Part shown: positions 20,318 through 30,596 of the stretch, piece by piece
How the letters are laid out: every line of letters begins with the position of its first letter
Numbering within the stretch: the first letter of the stretch is position 1
Source of the DNA: Chloroflexota bacterium
GTDB lineage: Bacteria > Chloroflexota > Dehalococcoidia > Dehalococcoidales > UBA2162
NCBI GenBank assembly: GCA_016190895.1
Contig: JACPPR010000002.1
Coordinates: 1 to 35,705, forward strand
Length of the DNA stretch: 35,705 bases
Direction of reading: 5' to 3'
The notes under the pieces: model-generated
Seen by the model: the letters and a program-made list of their open reading frames with translations, nothing else
Told to the model about the DNA's origin: nothing
Databases searched by the model: none
Made by a program: the position numbers and the translations under genes

Positions 20318-21328
20318 TTACCACCATTCCCTTACTTCGGGTGAGGCGACCAGAAGCGACCGGTCTATGGCCGAGAGGTCGGGGCAACCGCAAATCGCCA
20401 TTGTCCTTTTCAGTTCGGCGGTGATAAAACCGATGAACTGTTCGATGCCCTCGGCGCCTCCGGCCGAAGCCGCCATCACGATGGAAGTGGCAAACCCTAC
20501 TCCTTTGGCGCCGAGCGCCAACGCCTTAAACACATCATTGCCGGTTCTGAAGCCGCTATCCGCCAGCACAGTGACCTGACCGCCCACCGCCTTTGCCACC
20601 TTCGGCAGCGCCACTATGGAGGGCACGCCGAAATCAAAGGCTCCCCAGCCGTGATTGCTGACCATCACTGCCGAGGCGCCCATCTCGACAGCTTTCTTCG
20701 CGTCTTCGATGCTGAGAATGCCTTTGATAATAAACGGAAGTTTGGTGGCTGATATCGCCTGGCGAATTTCATCTGTCTTCTTGGGAGCGTAGGTGTCGGT
20801 CTGCCGCCCGCTGCCGTCACGAAACCCGCCATAAAAATGGTCGATATCCATACCGACGGCGACGCAGCCCCGTTTTGCCGCATCATTTACCTTCTCGTAT
20901 ATCAGGTCGGTAGTCCGGTAAGGCTTGACCATCTTCACCACAGGTGCGCCGGTATCTATGGCGGATTGAAGCAGTTCCGAACCGCCGATGCCGAGTATCA
21001 TCATCGACCCGGATTTGCCCATCCCGCGGACGAGGTCGACCATTTCTTCATCGGATAGATGCCCGGGCTTGGAGAGCGCCGTGCAGAAAGTGGGCGTTTT
21101 CATTTTCACCCCGAAAAGAGTCAGCCCTGTATCCGGCGCTACCGGCTCCAGATATCGGGATTCCATAAAGATGGCATCCAGGAGCTTCCGCTGTAGCTGT
21201 GACGAGGCCTGATAGTTGGATGCCGATGGCACCTGCCGTTCCAATCCCTTCGCTTTCAGGTTCTCCTTCGCCAGATTAAAAAGTTCGGATAGAGTCTGGG
21301 GGTTTTTCACGGTTTTCTCGGTTGTCAT
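20318..21328 (-). CDS. FMN-dependent alpha-hydroxy-acid oxidase/dehydrogenase-like protein
   Basis: From MTTEKTVKNPQTLSEL..; PFIIKGILSIEDAKKAVEMGASAVMVSNHGWGAFDF, VLADSGFRTGNDVFKALALGAKGVGFA. Confidence 0.88.
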   Translation of the reverse strand: MTTEKTVKNPQTLSELFNLAKENLKAKGLERQVPSASNYQASSQLQRKLLDAIFMESRYLEPVAPDTGLTLFGVKMKTPTFCTALSKPGHLSDEEMVDLVRGMGKSGSMMILGIGGSELLQSAIDTGAPVVKMVKPYRTTDLIYEKVNDAAKRGCVAVGMDIDHFYGGFRDGSGRQTDTYAPKKTDEIRQAISATKLPFIIKGILSIEDAKKAVEMGASAVMVSNHGWGAFDFGVPSIVALPKVAKAVGGQVTVLADSGFRTGNDVFKALALGAKGVGFATSIVMAASAGGAEGIEQFIGFITAELKRTMAICGCPDLSAIDRSLLVASPEVREWW

Positions 21329-21395: not shown

Positions 21396-21887
21396 TCACC
21401 GCAAATCGCTGGTATAGATGAAATCGTTGGCCCTCTTCTTGCCATGACAACTAATACACTCGTTGACTCTGCCGCTCATGGCTATCGTACCATCGGGGGT
21501 ATACTTCATCCAGAACCAGTCGTTGTTTCTCGGGTAAAAACCCTTCACTTTGTACATGACCGTGACCGCGTCCAGAACCTTATCGGGCGTGTAGTTCTCT
21601 TTTATGATTATGCTACCGTCGGGAATGCTACCCTGCTTACCTTCTATCGCCGAAAAAGCGCTATCAGTCACGTAGGTGGTGAGATAAAAGCCATGAGGTT
21701 CCTGGCCGAGATAGAGCGCCTGCCTACCGGGCCACATCTTCCAGTTGTGGTAGTCGTTCTCCGCTGTAATATATCTGTAGACAGATGTTGCATCGACTTC
21801 TGCCGTGGGTGCCGGCGCACGGGTACAGGCTGTTAGGGCAAGTGACAATCCAATAAACAGAGCCAATAATGACATCGGTCTTTTCAT
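21396..21887 (-). CDS. Cytochrome P460-family lipoprotein (CxxCH heme motif)
   Basis: MKRPMSLLALFIGLSLALTACTRAP lipobox; WPGRQALYLGQEPHGFYLTTYVTDSA; CISCHGKKRANDFIYTSDLR. Start approximate. Confidence 0.8.
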   Translation of the reverse strand: MKRPMSLLALFIGLSLALTACTRAPAPTAEVDATSVYRYITAENDYHNWKMWPGRQALYLGQEPHGFYLTTYVTDSAFSAIEGKQGSIPDGSIIIKENYTPDKVLDAVTVMYKVKGFYPRNNDWFWMKYTPDGTIAMSGRVNECISCHGKKRANDFIYTSDLR

Positions 21888-21954: not shown

Positions 21955-22251
21955 TTACATCTGAGCGGTCTTGCCGCCGAGACAATAGTACGCCTTATCA
22001 AGGTCATATTGCTTATAGAGCGCACATGTCATGCAAATGCAGCCTTTCTCTTCGGTGATACATATGCTCTTCTCGAACGCGCAAAACATGCCTTCCAGAT
22101 GGTCTAATTTACCAATGTCTCTCATCATGGCGAACATATTACTCGGTATGCTCTTTACCTTACATGTGAATGTGTACGTGGGGCATCTCATACAGAGACA
22201 TTTCATGAGATTCGCTTTGGTCTTGGCTACAGTTTTCACAGCCTGGCTCAT
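21955..22251 (-). CDS. Cys-rich DUF2769-like protein
   Basis: 98 aa; CLCMRCPTYTFTCK...GMFCAFEKSICITEEKGCICMTCALYKQYDLDKAYYCLGG. Confidence 0.75.
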   Translation of the reverse strand: MSQAVKTVAKTKANLMKCLCMRCPTYTFTCKVKSIPSNMFAMMRDIGKLDHLEGMFCAFEKSICITEEKGCICMTCALYKQYDLDKAYYCLGGKTAQM

Positions 22252-22366: not shown

Positions 22367-22543
22367 TCAGGAGTTTATGACAGTAAGCACTGCCAGCACG
22401 ATAGCGATTATGCCAAGCAGCGGGTGAACGAAGAAAAGCCGGCGCGTTATGAAGCCCTTAAGCGGATTGTTTTCTACCTTCAGCGTTAGAGCACAAATTC
22501 CGGAAGCAATCACCATAATCATTGTCCAAACAGCCAGGCTCAT
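22367..22543 (-). CDS. Small two-TM-like protein (58 aa), below the ORF-track length cutoff
   Basis: Minus strand GAGGAGGCTAAG-ATG: MSLAVWTMIMVIASGICALTLKVENNPLKGFITRRLFFVHPLLGIIAIVLAVLTVINS*. Confidence 0.65.
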   Translation of the reverse strand: MSLAVWTMIMVIASGICALTLKVENNPLKGFITRRLFFVHPLLGIIAIVLAVLTVINS

Positions 22544-22634: not shown

Positions 22635-23888
22635 CTATTTTGGCGGTTCTGGTCGCGGCGCCGGTGTCGGCGCAAATCCCCTGGGGACCAGTTGCCCGGC
22701 GGCAACACCTTGCAATGCTTTATCTTGGCTTCTGGCGCAGGCTTCCCTCACCGTCTTTAGCACTTTTCCGGCCACTGTATTTTCCCAAAACCACTTGGCA
22801 AGGAGCTTGCTATCTGAGGTCTCCATACCGGGTTGTGCTGTAACCGCTTCGTTGTAGTAGGCTTTCAGGTCATCTGCGGCATACCTGAGCTCGGACGCCA
22901 AGGGTATGTCCTGCCGCGGATTCTTTAGCGGAGCTTCGGCCAGAAAAGAGCAAATAAAATCGGTCATCTCGTCAAGAGACAGTCTGGATAGCCCCAAGGT
23001 AGTGCGCTTGCGCTTCTGCATGGCCAACTCATACCAGGGCCGTAAAGACGCCATCTCCGTTTTGAAAGCCTGACAGAATTTCTCCGCATCGGTGGTATTG
23101 GACTCCTCTGCTGGTGGCACGTACGGACAGGCCAGCACTGGCGGTTCTTCCGCAGAAACAGGGGCATTTTGCGGGAAATCCGTTAGCACCACGGGGCCTT
23201 CGGGCGCTTCAAGGAGCTTAAGAGCCGCCAGCAGCACCTGCCTCTGAAAGGCCGGATTGTTAGGTGCACCTAACGGACGCCCGAACTCAAAGGGCACCCA
23301 TAACGCCCTCGGGGGCTTGATAGTTTCAGTATGTTGCCGGACCAGGCTTAGCCCTGTAGTCGGCACACCCTCTTCCTCCAGGAAATGGGACAGCACGCCA
23401 ACGGCGCGCGTGCAGAGTGCCGGTCATATCGGGATGAGCAGCACACCATCGACCTTATCCTTCTTCAGCAAGCCAGACAGAAAGCGCCCCTGCTGTTCCC
23501 ACTTTAAGGGGTCATCGGCGCCCATGAAGGAATAGTGATAATCAGCCACGCTGCCGATGATTCCCTCATCTGCTAACTCTCTCAGGCGGTCAATGGGGAA
23601 GACGACATTCCAGTCCTGTTGAAATCCGCTTCTATCAAAGCTGAGCGATACGTGGCTCATTATCAGGTCGCTTGATTTGACGTTGCCCGGGATGATGCGG
23701 TAATAATCGCCAGAATCTCGGGTAAACGGGCGGTCTTCTGGCCGGTGCAAACCGGCCATGGTGATGATAGCGACACGCCGTTCGCTGAGCGGCGGCCCTT
23801 TCACCCAGGGGAAAGTATTGAATGTCGGCATCTGCGGGCCTCCGGGGCCTCTTGGCGCCCCGGCGCCAGGTCTTTCAGGACTTACCAT
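22635..23888 (-). CDS. Candidate selenoprotein, GrdB-like (glycine/sarcosine/betaine/proline reductase selenoprotein B-related), copy 1
   Basis: Track ORFs 23424..23888 and 22635..23396 share one frame across TGA (23424-23426): VDGVLLIPI-U-PALCTRAVGVLSHFLEEEGVPTTG. Confidence 0.82.
23393..23409 (-). promoter_or_regulatory. Candidate bacterial SECIS hairpin, GrdB-like copy 1
   Basis: GCGCGCC-GTT-GGCGTGC, loop 21 nt after TGA, one G-U pair. Confidence 0.65.
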
Positions 23889-24016
23889 GTTCTTAACTTC
23901 CTTTCTCTATTTCTGTCAATGTGCAATAGTACCTGCACTACGAATCCTGTACTCATAGCTTTCCGGTTGTCTTTAGCACCATTGTCCTACTTCTTTTCAC
24001 TCAGCAAGAGCCTAGC

Positions 24017-25246
24017 TCACCTTTTCCTGAGGCGGGCTACCTCCCTCGGCACAAGAAATCCCCGGGCGGCGCCCCGTAAGGCCCTGTCTTCGCTGTTTTC
24101 GTACTTGTTTTTGATTGCCATCATCACTTTACCGGCTACAGTTTCATCCCAGAACCAGTCAGTCAAAGCCTGGCTGGAAGCGTATTCCTGGCCGGGTTGG
24201 GCAGTGATTGCCTCGAAATAATAGGCCTTAAAGTCATCCGAGGCCAGTTTGAGTAGATTGGTCGGTGGTATATCGTTCCGCGGGCTTTCCAGTTTACCGG
24301 TTTGTAGAAAAGAGTAAATCAAATCTCCGATAGCAGCTACATCCAGCCCACTGGAGCCCACTGTAGTACGCCCGCGTCTCTCAACGGCGATGTCATACCA
24401 GGCACGCAAGCAGGCAATTTCGCTTTTGAGGGACTCATGTAGTTGTTCGGCGTCCTCGGAAGCCACTGTGGCCTGCGCAAAATTCACCGGGCACGCCAGA
24501 GTGATGACTTCCTCGGTCGAAGCGGGGACATCCTCCGGGAAATCCTCAATCAAGGGCCCGGCTGGCGCCTCAAGCAGCTTCAGCGCCGCCACCATCACCC
24601 GTTTTTGAAACGCCGGGTCATCCGGCATACCGAGTGGACGCCCCAGCTCAAAAGGCACCCAGAGCGCCCGAGGCGGCTTAATCTTTTCGGTGTGCAACCT
24701 GACCAGGCTTATCCCTGTCGTCGGGACTCCCTCTTCCTCAAAGAAGCGAGACAGCGCGCCAACGGCGCGCGTGCACATCGCTCAGACAGGTAAGAGCAAT
24801 ACGGCATCTACTTTGTCTTTCTTCAAGAGCACGGCCACCTCACGGGCCTGTTTTTCTATATTCTTCGGCTCGTGAGCGCCCATAAAGGAGTAGTGGAAAT
24901 CGGCCACGCTGCCGATAACGCCCTCTTTAGCCAGTTCCCGGAGCCTGTCCACAGGGAAGATGACGTTCAAATCCTGCTGAAAGCCGCTGCGGTCGAAATT
25001 GATTGACAGATGTGTCATCACCAGTTCATCGCCTTTGACATTTCCCGGAATAACCCGGTAGTAGTCTCCGGTATCACGGGTGAAGGGACGGTCGCTACGC
25101 CGGTGCAGGCCGGCCGCCGAAACGAGAGCCACCCGCCTCTGGTTTAATGGTGGCCCCTCGACCCACGGGCGCATGTCATAAGTCGGGCATTCCGCTTCTA
25201 CAAGGTGTTTTCTCTCTTCTTCACTTAACTTCTCAAGACGAACCAT
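24017..25246 (-). CDS. Candidate selenoprotein, GrdB-like, copy 2
   Basis: Track ORFs 24782..25246 and 24017..24778 share one frame across TGA (24782-24784): VDAVLLLPV-U-AMCTRAVGALSRFFEEEGVPTTG. Confidence 0.87.
24754..24770 (-). promoter_or_regulatory. Candidate bacterial SECIS hairpin, GrdB-like copy 2
   Basis: GCGCGCC-GTT-GGCGCGC perfect stem, loop 18 nt after TGA; outer pairing GAGCGA/UCGCUU possible. Confidence 0.7.
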
Positions 25247-25917
25247 TACGGCACCTCCTTTGTTACCATTGTTTTATGTGCGGTCACTTCTTCCCTGAGC
25301 TTTGCGGCGGCTTCTTCGATAGCGGCAAGCGTTTCGCAATTGTTTTCCCATCGCTGAAACAGGTGCGCCGTGCTCTCCAGGGAATGAGCTGTTTCTCCAA
25401 TCATCCGGTAAAGCGCCCCAATGCTGCATTCGCGGTGCCGCCCGCAATAAAGGCAGGGCGGCGAATGGGACAGGTATTTCACTATGCCGAGAAGCTTCGT
25501 GCCCTGGCCACGCAGTTTTTTCTGGATTTGTTCCACGGCGTCATCGACATTTCTATGGCCGCAGATGACGGCAACAAATGGCTTGTCTTTAATCGCCGGG
25601 GTTACGTGACGATATCCGAAGAACCTCTCGAGAAAGCTCAAAGCAATCGCGTTCAGGTTTCCGGAATAGACCGCGCTTCCGAAGACAACGGCATCAGCCT
25701 CCTTTATCTTCTGGTAGTTAGGCATCGCCTCGTCATCGAGACGGCATACCTGGGGTCTGGCGCAGAGGTCGACACAGCCTTTGCAGCCGCTGAACGTCAG
25801 GTCGGTGAGCTTGACAAACTCGGACTCCAGGCCGCTCCTGTCAAGTATCGCCTGAACCATACGGTCGGTATTACCCAAATGCCCGGCACCACCGCTAGAG
25901 AATCCTATAATACTCAT
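25246..25917 (-). CDS. Flavodoxin-fold NADPH-dependent FMN reductase / Fe-S flavoprotein family
   Basis: SIIGFSSGGAGHLGNTDRMVQAIL, SGCKGCVDLCARPQVC, DAVVFGSAVYSGNLNAI; stop overlaps start of GrdB-like copy 2 (TAATG). Confidence 0.85.
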   Translation of the reverse strand: MSIIGFSSGGAGHLGNTDRMVQAILDRSGLESEFVKLTDLTFSGCKGCVDLCARPQVCRLDDEAMPNYQKIKEADAVVFGSAVYSGNLNAIALSFLERFFGYRHVTPAIKDKPFVAVICGHRNVDDAVEQIQKKLRGQGTKLLGIVKYLSHSPPCLYCGRHRECSIGALYRMIGETAHSLESTAHLFQRWENNCETLAAIEEAAAKLREEVTAHKTMVTKEVP

Positions 25918-25957
25918 CGCTCCCTCCTTAAGACCGTTCTACCGACTATTCCGCTAT

Positions 25958-26866
25958 CTAATCGATTTCGTCCTTGCTCCTCGGTATTCTCCCCTCGCAC
26001 GGCACGCCGGTCTGGCAAAGCCCGCAACCACGGTAGGTCCCGACATATCCGTGGTCTCTGCCCATCTCCTGAAGTATGACGGGCATTACCCTGGACTGAT
26101 AGTTGCTACATTTCGCCTTATCATGCCCTGCCTCGCTGATGGCACCGGCCGGGCAGCGCTTGATGCATTTCCCGCAATTCCCTGTGCGGTAGAAGAGGCA
26201 GTTATCAAGATGGCCCGGATAAGCGCGGGGAGTCGGTGGGATATCCAGGTCGCACACTATGCTCCCCAAGCGGATGGCCATCCCCACCGGCGAGATGAAC
26301 CCGTCACTCAGACCGAAGGTACCGAGGCCGGCAGCATAGGCGATATGCCGCTGCGACCACCTCGAAGCCGGACCGCCGGGCACATCCCGCTTCACCTCGA
26401 ACCAGCTTTCCTGTTCCGGAGCGACGGCGTGGCCGCCCATGTCTTCAACCAGGGCCACGAGATGGCGCGCCAGGCGCGCGTTCGCCTCCTGCCCATACCA
26501 GCGCGTGTAATTCCACCTGAGGGAAGAAACCTGAGTTTCCCGGCGCATGCTCTGGCGCGTTTCACGCGTGCTGGGAAGCGCCCAGGAGATAACGCGAACT
26601 TGTTCCGGCTGATAACCGCAGGCAGCCTTCTTGAGGTGCATTTCCAGGGCTTCCCGCGGTGTAACGTGGAAATCCCCGATTATACTTTTGTATTCTTTGA
26701 AGAGAGGGTCATCCCCGTCAGCAAACCCGACCGCCGGCCCATCCCAGATTCGCTCCCCGGGGAATGCAGGCATAACGTTGTTCGGTGTACCGGCGATATA
26801 CGTTTTGATGCTTTCCTCAAAGAACTGAGCCAGATTAGGCTTGGTCTTCGGATGCACTGCAGACAT
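25958..26866 (-). CDS. 4Fe-4S protein related to epoxyqueuosine reductase (QueG) / reductive dehalogenase C-terminal region
   Basis: NCGKCIKRCPAGAISEAGHDKAKC...YRGCGLCQTGVPCEGRIP; AGLGTFGLSDGFISPVGMAIRLGSIVCD. Confidence 0.8.
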   Translation of the reverse strand: MSAVHPKTKPNLAQFFEESIKTYIAGTPNNVMPAFPGERIWDGPAVGFADGDDPLFKEYKSIIGDFHVTPREALEMHLKKAACGYQPEQVRVISWALPSTRETRQSMRRETQVSSLRWNYTRWYGQEANARLARHLVALVEDMGGHAVAPEQESWFEVKRDVPGGPASRWSQRHIAYAAGLGTFGLSDGFISPVGMAIRLGSIVCDLDIPPTPRAYPGHLDNCLFYRTGNCGKCIKRCPAGAISEAGHDKAKCSNYQSRVMPVILQEMGRDHGYVGTYRGCGLCQTGVPCEGRIPRSKDEID

Positions 26867-26926
26867 GACACCTCCCTTCTAGCAGGCTTTGTTTATCGAC
26901 CCTTCGCTCTAGTGATGGCAGAAAAT

Positions 26927-27292
26927 CTAGCCGCACTCCACGGATTCTACCGCAATTTTCACCACGTGCTTTGGCTTCATATTCCTGGCCGCCATGGCGG
27001 TGACTGCTTCATCAAAGAGCGGCCCGGAATCCAGTACCTCGGCCGTGCCCCAGATGCGGCAGTTTTTACGCGTGGATGTATCCAAACAGATTATGCTCAC
27101 CTGCGGATTCTCCATAAGGTTAGCCACCGTGCGTGGCGAGTTCATATCACTGAAGACGACATGCTCGTCATCCAGTACCCGGAAAGACCCCTTTGCCGAT
27201 ACATTTGGCTTTCCCGCCTTGCTTGACGTGGCAATCAATGCCGGGTGGATATCTCCGATGAGTTTCTTCGCTTCTTCACTTAGTTTTGCCAA
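26927..27292 (-). CDS. Pyridoxamine 5'-phosphate oxidase-like FMN-binding split-barrel protein
   Basis: HPALIATSSKAGKPNVSAKGSFRVLDDEHVVFSDMNSPRTVANLMENPQVSIICLD. Confidence 0.85.
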   Translation of the reverse strand: MAKLSEEAKKLIGDIHPALIATSSKAGKPNVSAKGSFRVLDDEHVVFSDMNSPRTVANLMENPQVSIICLDTSTRKNCRIWGTAEVLDSGPLFDEAVTAMAARNMKPKHVVKIAVESVECG

Positions 27293-27319
27293 TTTTCTCC
27301 TCCTTCTTTCTTTGAAAAA

Positions 27320-27970
27320 TTATTTTGCCAGGTACTTTTCAATCGCTTCTCCAAGCTCAGCCGGTTTATATCCGAAAGGTCCCAGCCCTCCGGCGTAGGC
27401 AATCCGGCCATCCGCTCCAACCAGATAGAGACGGTTCGGATGAGCTGCGTAGGCTGTGTTGACCGCATCGTCCATAGCATCGACCAGCGTAGTCATTTCA
27501 TAGCCCAAAGTATTCTCACAGCGCTGGGCAACAGTCTGACGTTCCTCGATTGTTTTTGGGTCATAAATATCTATCGCTGGCTTAATGGCGCTTGCTTCTT
27601 TCATCCGCCCGCTCATGCCCATTCTCAGCAGCCACCCGGTTAACTGCCCGGCGGCGCCTCCCCCAAGCCACCACCCATCTATTGGGTGCGCTTCCCGGAT
27701 GTAAATGGTCAAAAACTCGAACCGGTCACGATATTTTAGATATAAATCACGGAGACTCACAGTCCCCCTTACGAAAGGCGGTCAGGTATAGCTGCCAAAA
27801 TTTAGCGCTATCGGCTTGCCCCGGAGGGAAGACAACCTGACCGGATTACCGCCGTTGGCGCCAGCCAGCTCAAAATCCGGGGCCATATCTCCGGCTTTTG
27901 GCGCCAAGGCGTCATATTTTTTCTGCCAGGTCCGGTTCTGTTCACGATATTTGATTGCGTCCATTGCCAT
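27320..27970 (-). CDS. Candidate selenoprotein: iodothyronine deiodinase-like thioredoxin-fold protein
   Basis: Track ORFs 27782..27970 and 27320..27760 share one frame across TGA (27782-27784): LRGKPIALNFGSYT-U-PPFVRGTVSLRDLYLKYRDRFEFLTIYIREAHPIDGWW..NRLYLVGADGRIAYAGGLGPFGYKPAELGEAIEKYLAK. Confidence 0.9.
27751..27767 (-). promoter_or_regulatory. Candidate bacterial SECIS hairpin, deiodinase-like gene
   Basis: GGGGACT-GTG-AGTCTCC, 7-bp stem (one G-U), loop 21 nt after TGA. Confidence 0.65.
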
Positions 27971-28000
27971 ACCAAGACTCTCCGATTGAATTATTTTGTC

Positions 28001-28399
28001 TTAACGCTTAACCATAGCCGGAGTTATGTCGCAGGGAATTTGCAGCGTGTTCGCTATGCTATTGAAACTTTCGAATAGCTCGATAACCTCCTTTACTTCC
28101 GTAATCTCCGTTTCAGTAGCGCCGACCATAAGCGCCATTGTTTCATGAGCCAGACTGCAATACTGACAGTTATTAGTCAAAGATACCGCCAGAGCAACGA
28201 TTTCTTTGGTCTTCCTGTCCAGCTGCCGCTGCCGGCCCATTATGCTCTTCCACCGCGTCCAATTCAGTTCCAGCCATTCCGGGTCAGCGGCCGCCTGCGC
28301 CCTGAAAAAATTGGGCACCATGCCCATCATCGCATTAATCTCCTGGAAAACTTCCTTGGCTTTTCCCGTAGCTTCGCTGTCCGTCAGCAGATTTGCCAT
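28001..28399 (-). CDS. Carboxymuconolactone decarboxylase/AhpD-like protein
   Basis: TKEIVALAVSLTNNCQYCSLAHETMALMVGAT CxxC..H motif. Confidence 0.88.
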   Translation of the reverse strand: MANLLTDSEATGKAKEVFQEINAMMGMVPNFFRAQAAADPEWLELNWTRWKSIMGRQRQLDRKTKEIVALAVSLTNNCQYCSLAHETMALMVGATETEITEVKEVIELFESFNSIANTLQIPCDITPAMVKR

Positions 28400-28435
28400 G
28401 AATTATCCCTCCTTTTCAACAACGTTTTAAGGGAC

Positions 28436-28464
28436 ATTCTACTATGACGTTACGTCACTGTCAA
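28436..28464 (-). promoter_or_regulatory. Promoter of the minus-strand array with a MerR-type dyad in the spacer
   Basis: Minus strand TTGACA-GTGACGTAACGTCATAG(17)-TAGAAT; dyad TGACGT-N-ACGTCA at 28445..28457. Confidence 0.75.
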
Positions 28465-28481
28465 GCCCCTGTGTTAACCTA

Positions 28482-28510
28482 TTGACATAAGGGTAGACTG
28501 GTGCTACAAT
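28482..28510 (+). promoter_or_regulatory. Promoter of the merR-like gene
   Basis: TTGACA-TAAGGGTAGACTGGTGC(17)-TACAAT, -10 end only 11 nt from ATG 28521. Confidence 0.75.
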
Positions 28511-28520
28511 CACGTTAGCT

Positions 28521-28973
28521 ATGGAAGAAGAGAAGAAAGACACAGCTACCGAAGTTCACCTGCAGATTGGCGAACTAGCTAGGCGGGCCGGCGTCAGCAT
28601 CAGGACTGTTCGTTACTACGAGGAGAAGGGCTTGCTGAACCCCTCCGGACTTACTTCGGGCGGCATTCGCCTCTACAACCAGCAAGACCTGAACCGGCTT
28701 ATCTTTATCCGTCGCCTCAAGACGCTGGGTTTGAATATCGAAGAGATAAAGATGTCTCTGGGCATCTTTGAGACAAGCCCGGAACAGAAAGTGCGTGTGG
28801 AGCGCACTCTGGAATTGCTGCGCCTGCAAAAAGAGAAACTGAAAGAAGAGTTGACCCGACTGACTGAAATGGCGAAGGAAATCGAGAACTCGGAGCGGCT
28901 GGTCACCAGATGTTTAAGCTGCCGCGCCCCGAAATGCCCCGCCCACTGCCCCAGCTTAGCTCATATCCTGTGA
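28521..28973 (+). CDS. MerR-family transcriptional regulator with Cys-rich C-terminus
   Basis: LQIGELARRAGVSIRTVRYYEEKGLLNPSGLTSGGIRLYNQQDLNRLIFIRRLKTLG...CLSCRAPKCPAHCPSL. Confidence 0.93.
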   Translation: MEEEKKDTATEVHLQIGELARRAGVSIRTVRYYEEKGLLNPSGLTSGGIRLYNQQDLNRLIFIRRLKTLGLNIEEIKMSLGIFETSPEQKVRVERTLELLRLQKEKLKEELTRLTEMAKEIENSERLVTRCLSCRAPKCPAHCPSLAHIL

Positions 28974-29264: not shown

Positions 29265-30596
29265 ATGGCAACACAGGTCAAGGGTAGTTCACTAAAGGAT
29301 TTTCAGGAGAATCAAAAGAGGCGAAAAGAGGAAATCGAACAAAGAAGCGGCAAGTCGGTAGAGCAGCTTTATGAGGAAAAGGAAGCAAGAGTAAGAGACG
29401 CCATCGCGCTGAGAGAGTCGGACCAGGTACCCGTCTCTCTGCGTATGACCTATTTCCCGGCTAAGTATGCCGGCATACCCACCGCCGCCGCCTATTATGA
29501 CAACATAGCCTGGCGTGATGCCGTCGCCAAGACTGTCACCAATATGGACCCCGATATCTTCCAGTGCTCCTCTGGTACCAGTTCCGGGGCAGTCAACGAA
29601 GCCCTCGACCCGACCCAGACACGCTGGCCTGGCGGCCCCCTGCCCGACAACGTCTCCCATCAGGCTATCGATGTCGAGACTATGAAGGAGAATGAATACG
29701 GCATCTACTTCTCCGACCCGACCGGCTTCGCAATTCGATATTTGCTGCCCAGGTCTTACAATGCCCTGGCGCCCCTGGCAAGCCTGCCTCCACTGGCCGG
29801 CCGCGCCCAGGGCTTCGCCGCAATGACGCCGATGTTCACCCGGCAGGAATTCAGGGATATGGCCAAAGCATTACTCAAAGCCGGGCAGGAACAGGAAAAA
29901 TGGCGTCAGACAGTGGGCAGCCTGGAAGTAGATATGTTTGAACTCGGCTTCCCGCCCAACGGCCATGGCGGCGGCGCCGGCGGGGCGCCCTTCGATCAAA
30001 TCTCTGACTTTTTCCGCGGCATGCGTGGGACGATGACCGATATGTACCGCCAGCCTGAAAACCTCTTGAGGATGCTGGACCAACTCTCACAGGAAGCTGT
30101 GAGAAGAGCGCAACCTGCCAACCCAGACACGCCCGGCAACCCCAAGAGATTATTCATAGCTCTCCATCGCGGCGCCGAGACCTTTATGTCCAGAAAACAG
30201 TTTGAAAAGTTCTACTGGCCTGGTCTGAAGGCGGCCATGCTCAGGTCTATCGAGCTAGGCTTTGTGCCGATGCCGTTCTGTGAAGGCAAGTACGGCGACC
30301 GCCTGGAGTATTTCCTCGAGCTGCCCAAAGGCAAGGTGGTCTGCCACTTCGACCTGACCGATATGCATAGGGCGAAGGATGTTTTGAAGGACCACGTCTG
30401 CATTATGGGCAATGTGCCCTCGCCGTTACTGCAGTTCGGCAAGCCCCACGAGGTAGAAGATTACTGCAAAGACCTCATCAAATACTGCGGCAAGGGCGGC
30501 GGCTTCATCCTGACCAACGGCAGCTCCACCGATACGGCCGACCCCGTCCTTGTCAAGGCGATGTGTGACTCGACCAAGAAATTCAGCGTGGACTAG
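29265..30596 (+). CDS. Uroporphyrinogen decarboxylase-like (UroD/MtaA superfamily) protein
   Basis: 443 aa; KLFIALHRGAETFMSRKQFEKFYWPGLKAAMLRSIELGFVPMPFCEGKYGDRLEYFLELPKGKVVCHFDLTDM..IMGNVPSPLLQFGKPHEVEDYCKDLI. Confidence 0.85.
   Translation: MATQVKGSSLKDFQENQKRRKEEIEQRSGKSVEQLYEEKEARVRDAIALRESDQVPVSLRMTYFPAKYAGIPTAAAYYDNIAWRDAVAKTVTNMDPDIFQCSSGTSSGAVNEALDPTQTRWPGGPLPDNVSHQAIDVETMKENEYGIYFSDPTGFAIRYLLPRSYNALAPLASLPPLAGRAQGFAAMTPMFTRQEFRDMAKALLKAGQEQEKWRQTVGSLEVDMFELGFPPNGHGGGAGGAPFDQISDFFRGMRGTMTDMYRQPENLLRMLDQLSQEAVRRAQPANPDTPGNPKRLFIALHRGAETFMSRKQFEKFYWPGLKAAMLRSIELGFVPMPFCEGKYGDRLEYFLELPKGKVVCHFDLTDMHRAKDVLKDHVCIMGNVPSPLLQFGKPHEVEDYCKDLIKYCGKGGGFILTNGSSTDTADPVLVKAMCDSTKKFSVD

Follow-up and report, generated by a model that had tools for sequence, protein, structure and literature searches.

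A MerR-linked gene array with three predicted selenoproteins, two of them of a long PrdB-like family, in a Dehalococcoidales genome

The window analyzed here is the whole of a 35,705-nucleotide stretch of DNA from a Chloroflexota bacterium of the order Dehalococcoidales (GenBank assembly GCA_016190895.1, contig JACPPR010000002.1, positions 1 to 35,705 of the forward strand). It contains seven minus-strand genes behind one divergent merR gene, and the list of open reading frames (ORFs) and the sequence place an in-frame TGA in three of the seven. We predict that all three TGAs encode selenocysteine (Sec) and that the array is under MerR control; two of the proteins belong to a family that we call long PrdB-like, and the third is deiodinase-like. 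Our preferred interpretation, to which we give a probability of a little under one half (about 0.45), is that the array is a selenol reductase operon that reductively cleaves or detoxifies an electrophile and is re-reduced by thiol, flavin, and iron-sulfur (Fe-S) partners. An earlier note on this DNA, made from the sequence alone, had described the order, strands, and frames of the array, and these are as it described them:

28521..28973, plus strand: MerR-family regulator with a Cys-rich C-terminal end, CX2CX4CX3C (Pfam MerR_1, E value 1.6e-20)
28482..28510, plus strand: merR promoter, TTGACA-17-TACAAT (consensus match only)
28436..28464, minus strand: operon promoter, TTGACA-17-TAGAAT, with the palindrome TGACGTAACGTCA in its spacer (28445-28457) as candidate MerR operator
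28001..28399, minus strand: AhpD/CMD-like protein with a CxxC motif, CQYC (Pfam CMD, E value 4.8e-15)
27320..27970, minus strand: predicted deiodinase-like selenoprotein, Sec codon TGA at 27782-27784 (Pfam T4_deiodinase, E value 2e-27)
27751..27767, minus strand: hairpin resembling a Sec insertion sequence (SECIS), GGGGACU-GUG-AGUCUCC, behind the deiodinase-like UGA (GGGGACnGUnAGUCUCC kept in 7/7 close homologues)
26927..27292, minus strand: PPOX-type flavoprotein (PNPOx_N) with a TTG start (Pfam PNPOx_N, E value 8.3e-18)
25958..26866, minus strand: QueG-like protein with two [4Fe-4S] clusters (eight Cys conserved in 11 homologues; profile match)
25246..25917, minus strand: flavin mononucleotide (FMN) reductase of flavodoxin fold with Cys motifs CKGCVDLC and PPCLYC (Pfam FMN_red, E value 1.4e-11)
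24017..25246, minus strand: predicted long PrdB-like selenoprotein copy 2, TGA at 24782-24784, UxxC (TIGR04483, E value 1.4e-33, residues 33-226)
24754..24770, minus strand: SECIS hairpin of copy 2, GCGCGCC-GUU-GGCGCGC (synonymous-site constraint and covariation, 70 homologues)
22635..23888, minus strand: predicted long PrdB-like selenoprotein copy 1, TGA at 23424-23426, UxxxC (57% identical to copy 2)
23393..23409, minus strand: SECIS hairpin of copy 1, GCGCGCC-GUU-GGCGUGC (constraint and covariation)

Selenocysteine coding

Each TGA-containing frame runs on into the homologous second half of its protein. A profile built from the two PrdB-like copies, run against 150 relatives, retrieved full-length homologues from ten other genomes, and every one has TGA at the site. 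A scan of genome contigs, using peptide patterns that exclude the Sec site, found 80 long PrdB-like loci; together with the window copies and one further locus (L050) these gave 83 sites, and the codon was TGA in 83/83 and Cys in none. The deiodinase-like TGA was likewise kept in all 7 close homologues. The earlier note had proposed a search for the sel genes, and the window genome, a metagenome assembly of 2.09 Mb that is 79% complete, indeed carries adjacent selA and selB genes, selD (which contains a TGA of its own), and tRNA-Sec on contig C76. Two tRNA-Sec matches with equal scores lie at contig ends (G000:C76:14092-14183 and G000:C84:15909-16000) and probably represent one gene in overlapping ends. 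Among the long PrdB-like host genomes tested, several of them incomplete, 32 of 36 have tRNA-Sec. Since the frames continue, the TGA is conserved, and the Sec machinery is present in the same genome, the three TGAs are not chance stops, and the three candidate selenoproteins of the earlier note are, on this genomic evidence, genuine.

The sequence behind the UGA of the long PrdB-like genes carries a second signal. Across an alignment of 70 homologues, the T, R, A, and G codons that follow the UGA show third-base entropies of 0.50, 0.32, 0.52, and 0.21 bits, compared with 1.80 ± 0.17 bits at fourfold sites elsewhere in the gene, and the GUN codon of the loop is unconstrained (1.73 bits). At one stem pair we observed two-sided changes between C-G, U-A, and A-U, with 69/70 homologues paired, and the paired stem cells exceeded all 1000 shuffles, which ignore relatedness. 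These synonymous-site and pair counts were used because a plain test of folding energy did not set the SECIS hairpins apart. The small hairpin with its GUN loop is thus an RNA constraint inside the coding sequence. A search of the window with Rfam returned nothing at the gathering threshold.

The long PrdB-like family and its partner proteins

The two copies had been labeled GrdB-like, a label that stands insofar as both pass the gathering cut-off of PF07355 (33.7 and 39.7 bits against 22). The alignment with GrdB is confined to its last half, Sec site included, and the best match of residues 33-227 is to PrdB (TIGR04483), at 107.5 bits and, for copy 2, 116.4 bits; the curated cut-off of 300 places them outside PrdB proper. 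From residue ~230 on, no Pfam or NCBIfam model matches. An AlphaFold2 model from 70 sequences (predicted local distance difference test [pLDDT], 91; predicted template modeling score [pTM], 0.90) consists of an alpha/beta core, in which Sec begins the helix that follows a strand, and a helical domain spanning residues 266-408. Searches of the PDB by sequence and by fold gave no convincing match, and weak, sub-threshold matches to glutamate racemase structures were not relied on. With a PrdB-type core and a new helical C-terminal domain, the family is better named long PrdB-like.

Invariant residues of the family include R64, H79, D85, D92, H118, U155, C158, T159, E170, and most of a PPRALW stretch. 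Its hosts comprise Chloroflexota, desulfobacterial and other deltaproteobacterial lineages, Alpha-, Beta-, and Gammaproteobacteria, and SAR324, with SAR116, SAR202, and SAR324 as marine hosts among them. The window copies belong to separate clades of the family tree and are therefore not a recent duplication. Copy 1 has an extra codon after Sec (U-P-A-L-C, window 23414-23426), the sole case among the 70 aligned homologues.

We found no gene for the pyruvoyl subunit PrdA/GrdE (PF09338) in 11 incomplete genomes, namely, the window genome and ten relatives. Of 25 other host genomes, 3 scored above the cut-off in the same search, and there was one further weak match, so the search works. GrdA (PF04723) was found in 0/11 genomes, by a search that lacked any positive-control match. 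The family thus occurs mostly without its pyruvoyl partner, and all-against-all clustering gave no neighbor common to most long PrdB-like loci. The antisense ORFs that make up cluster 2 of this clustering are shadows of the long PrdB-like gene.

The deiodinase-like protein keeps the GSYTUPPF (GSxTUPPF) and EAHP motifs. Its score (PF00837, 96.5 bits against 27), the Sec in the UPPF motif, and EAHP place it in the deiodinase family; the closest solved structures are iodothyronine deiodinases of type III (best) and type II, and its NF038285 score of 172.6 bits lies below the cut-off of 250. The label of QueG or reductive dehalogenase relative given to the two-cluster protein holds for its C-terminal Fe-S half, where a profile match to QueG and to tetrachloroethene (PCE) reductive dehalogenase covers residues ~155-280. 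The N-terminal half is unmatched, and no full-length match including the cobalamin-binding N-terminal part was obtained, all matches taken together covering residues ~155-291; a single-sequence structure model had a pLDDT of 32 and was unusable. The thiol, selenol, flavin, and Fe-S composition ascribed to the module thus agrees with the families present.

In G006, a Chloroflexi groundwater metagenome-assembled genome of another genus of the same family, the FMN reductase gene (L042:8517-9182, plus strand) has a TGA at the first Cys of CLYC, giving PPULYC where the window protein has PPCLYC. This single example is a candidate further selenoprotein, outside the families in the table of a 2026 review (PMC13188914).

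Regulation, neighborhood, and operon extent

The operon and merR promoters stand back to back, and each matches 11 of 12 consensus positions. A helix-turn-helix domain and the palindrome between the -35 and -10 elements of a divergent promoter identify the regulator as a MerR-family member; its relatives are ZntR, CueR, and MerR, and it scores below the NCBIfam curated cut-off of every named regulator. Four MerR loci, that of the window and three in two other genera, share the arrangement TTGACA-n-TGACGTnACGTYA-nnn-TAnAAT with a 17-bp spacer, and this despite a differing first downstream gene (AhpD in one locus, PPOX in three). The palindrome occurs in two of the four with 2-3 mismatches, and the window has no second site at ≤1 mismatch (0.05 matches expected). 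The MerR proteins of the window and of the syntenic G006 locus L042 share 62% identity, and both keep all four Cys of CX2CX4CX3C. The MerR control suggested in the earlier note is supported by this conservation, and the array appears to be regulated through the candidate operator-promoter.

A neighborhood search, also suggested there, found a conserved, syntenic MerR cluster in G006 (L042/L062), with a divergent MerR gene followed by PPOX, acetyl-CoA-synthase-beta-like, AhpD, QueG-like, FMN reductase, and long PrdB-like genes, 57-80% identical to the window genes. A second G006 cluster reads MerR-PPOX-acetyl-CoA-synthase-like-QueG. Genome G004 has MerR-PPOX-FMN reductase-FMN dehydrogenase and next to it EamA, with an aminotransferase gene further on. 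The PPOX gene is conserved behind MerR in L042, L169, and L187. The acetyl-CoA-synthase beta-like genes (PF19436; L042:5184-7076, plus strand; L169:8813-10735, minus strand) have a divergent N-terminal half and stand twice behind MerR and PPOX in G006; the window operon has no such gene.

Parts of the neighborhood recur more widely. AhpD-like genes lie ≤1.5 kb from long PrdB-like genes 9 times, in several phyla, against 1.5 expected (p < 5e-5 in placement shuffles that ignore relatedness). Five proteobacterial loci, three from Betaproteobacteria and two from Alphaproteobacteria, have a gene for an AhpD-like CxxU selenoprotein directly upstream of the long PrdB-like gene; these two-selenoprotein pairs are at L091:6169-6807, L101:9343-10281, L111:8606-9955, L108:8567-9994, and L109:9317-9997. 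In two loci of desulfobacterial lineage (L086 and L088), the FMN reductase gene directly follows the long PrdB-like gene. The co-occurrence that the earlier note proposed to check was found for deiodinase-like with long PrdB-like genes (6/7 genomes among relatives, p 2e-7, relatedness ignored) and did not extend significantly to QueG-like genes. Two of these co-occurrence genomes have the order Crp, deiodinase-like, lipoprotein, long PrdB-like. A fibronectin/F5-F8-like lipoprotein gene is directly upstream of the long PrdB-like gene at L041:10406-11239, L043:3533-4363, and L061:4524-5354, with Crp and deiodinase-like genes also in L041 and L043. Gene order is thus conserved in pieces, with parts recurring in distantly related bacteria. 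Two of the outcomes that, according to the earlier note, would refute its reading, missing sel genes and a neighborhood not conserved in relatives, are thereby contradicted.

Within the array, intergenic gaps range from -1 to 60 bp as far as copy 2, with 128 bp ahead of copy 1, and an AGGAGG-like ribosome-binding site precedes most genes. The array is probably co-transcribed. Its limits had been drawn too short, as same-strand genes continue past 22635 to about 20318:

22367..22543, minus strand: small 58-residue hydrophobic protein, likely closed by a normal TGA stop; probable operon extension (ORF and ribosome-binding site; no Pfam match)
21955..22251, minus strand: DUF2769 Cys-rich small protein; probable operon extension (PF10967, E value 6.6e-15)
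21396..21887, minus strand: cytochrome P460-like lipoprotein with a CISCH heme motif, start inferred; probable operon extension (PF16694, E value 2.6e-12)
20318..21328, minus strand: FMN-dependent alpha-hydroxy-acid-dehydrogenase-like protein; probable last operon gene (PF01070, E value 1.7e-60)

FMN dehydrogenase, EamA, and aminotransferase genes follow in that order beside the window array. Because G004 shares this order, the operon probably spans 28399 to ~20318 and includes the cytochrome P460 and FMN dehydrogenase genes. L043 and L061 have DUF2769 homologues close to long PrdB-like genes, and L043 also has a P460 homologue close to its Crp and deiodinase-like genes. The PrdB-like, deiodinase-like, P460, and DUF2769 genes may have joined an older MerR-PPOX-flavoprotein operon. 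Beyond merR, at 29265-30596 on the plus strand, lies a uroporphyrinogen-decarboxylase/methyltransferase-like gene with distant relatives near long PrdB-like genes in L050, L071, and L072.

Proposed function and relation to known systems

AhpD and CMD proteins use CxxC. PrdB requires PrdA for proline reduction, the two forming a two-subunit enzyme. PrdB and GrdB take part in the cleavage of C-N bonds with a selenol, and deiodinases remove halogens with Sec, so that reductive chemistry is established for both families (PMC13188914, PMC1088965). Sec coding, the conserved gene order and operator, and the AhpD enrichment are the observations from which the selenol reductase operon is proposed. In such an operon, the selenolate of the long PrdB-like protein would attack an electrophilic small molecule, reductively cleaving a C-N, C-S, or C-halogen bond, and would then form an Se-S bond to the UxxC cysteine. 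The AhpD-like CxxC protein would re-reduce the enzyme and would itself be fed by the FMN reductase, the PPOX flavoprotein, and the two-cluster Fe-S protein. The deiodinase-like protein would carry out a parallel reductive step, and MerR, through its Cys-rich end, would sense the substrate (directly or indirectly), a metal, or redox stress and so control the operon. Both this electron transfer between the partners and the substrate class are put forward provisionally.

More tentatively still, we suggest that the long PrdB-like proteins form a separate, Sec-obligate reductase class without a pyruvoyl subunit, in which the fused helical domain would supply the substrate site, the reductants would be AhpD-type or flavin proteins, and the substrate would be of non-Stickland type. 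From anaerobic Chloroflexota and desulfobacterial lineages, the spread of this class would extend into marine Proteobacteria.

Several points weigh against a selenol reductase operon of this kind. Full synteny is confined to one other genome, and most long PrdB-like loci have other neighbors. QueG-like genes, common across the order, do not co-occur significantly with long PrdB-like genes. The 17-bp spacer of the four MerR loci differs from the 19-20 bp of typical MerR-type activators (ZntR, CueR, MerR, SoxR). Finally, as PrdB needs PrdA, a stand-alone PrdB-like enzyme may do different chemistry.

An unlikely, though serious, alternative is a defense against oxidative or thiol stress, with the AhpD-like, deiodinase-like (thioredoxin-fold), and long PrdB-like proteins acting as peroxide or disulfide reductases fed by the flavoproteins, without carbon-bond cleavage. 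AhpD/CMD and thioredoxin-fold Sec proteins are typical thiol oxidoreductases, and both the AhpD-like CxxU genes adjoining long PrdB-like genes in Proteobacteria and the Cys-rich end of MerR would fit such a role. However, the known role of PrdB and GrdB cores is that of substrate-cleaving subunits rather than peroxidases, the deiodinase-specific residues are retained, and stress defense would have no need for the PPOX, two-cluster Fe-S, and FMN dehydrogenase genes.

We consider it improbable that the deiodinase-like and QueG-like proteins strip halogens from organohalides with the PrdB-like proteins assisting. The GSYTUPPF...EAHP signature, the type III deiodinase as best solved match, the C-terminal relation to PCE reductive dehalogenase, and the co-occurrence of deiodinase-like and long PrdB-like genes all speak for reductive dehalogenation. 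Against it, the N-terminal half of the QueG-like protein, on the cobalamin side, is not part of the match; QueG-like genes are frequent in the order where long PrdB-like genes are absent; and the syntenic G006 cluster has no deiodinase-like gene.

A role in metal, metalloid, or organometal handling, with selenols acting on a metal compound as proposed for SAO, is distinctly improbable. It would suit the ZntR/CueR/MerR kinship and conserved Cys-rich end of the regulator, and selenoprotein operons for organometals have been proposed (PMC13188914); yet the operon proteins scanned included no Sao family, metal transporter, or MerB-like member. A Stickland-type reductase of D-proline, glycine, betaine, or sarcosine is very improbable. 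The PrdB-like core with UxxC would allow it, and some Dehalococcoidia are reported to have true glycine reductases (PMC9751293), but the failure to find PF09338 (clearly detected elsewhere by the same search) or GrdA (under the control limit stated above) makes it unlikely, and the score is far under the PrdB cut-off. That the array is an artefact of broken genes, sequencing errors, chance TGAs, and loose, unrelated genes in an incomplete metagenome assembly has a negligible probability, contradicted as it is by the 83/83 TGA, the SECIS constraint, the Sec machinery, and the conserved operator.

The component families are known, and their combination appears to be undescribed. PMC13188914 lists 119 selenoprotein families and several selenoprotein operons; its family table and operon passages contain no such gene combination, long PrdB form, or FMN reductase, as far as the open-access literature goes. 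With PrdB (TIGR04483), the selenoprotein subunit of D-proline reductase, the long PrdB-like proteins share a homologous core and UxxC at the matching place; they differ in scoring 93-116 bits (cut-off 300), in the extra helical C-terminal domain, in giving no PrdA match in the 11 genomes named above, and in always using Sec. They match the second half, with the Sec site, of GrdB/GrdF/GrdH (PF07355), selenoprotein B of glycine, sarcosine, and betaine reductase, and differ in lacking the first half of GrdB and in occurring where no GrdE or GrdA was found. The deiodinase-like protein shares Sec in GSxTUPPF and EAHP with known bacterial deiodinase-like selenoproteins (PF00837, NF038285) and is well above the PF00837 cut-off; it differs in falling below that of NF038285 and in being encoded in a MerR operon or behind Crp with long PrdB-like genes. 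The QueG-like protein has in common with QueG and respiratory reductive dehalogenases the C-terminal two-cluster domain and the preceding GLGTF region; it is set apart by its unmatched N-terminal half and a last cluster motif of CxxCx5C. In the SAO and Tso operons, as outlined in PMC13188914, several selenoproteins are encoded together, as in the window; the protein families are other ones, and the eight window proteins scanned had no Sao or Tso NCBIfam match.

Ocean surveys found PrdB selenoproteins to be abundant, with 42 in the Sargasso Sea and 235 in the Global Ocean Sampling (GOS) data (PMC1088965, PMC2398784). UxxC, the PrdB relation, and marine hosts are common to these and to the long PrdB-like proteins; the survey descriptions, on which our comparison is based, mention no C-terminal domain, operon, or partners, and the marine "PrdB" proteins may in part be the same family. 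They rank among the most abundant selenoproteins of the open ocean, yet the surveys' descriptions assign them no function other than that of the proline reductase label. The long, always-Sec form and its recurrent AhpD and flavoprotein neighbors now supply a concrete set of proteins with which the function of the group can be tested. The array adds a further case of selenoproteins clustered in one regulated pathway, and the FMN reductase with ULYC is a candidate for one more selenoprotein.

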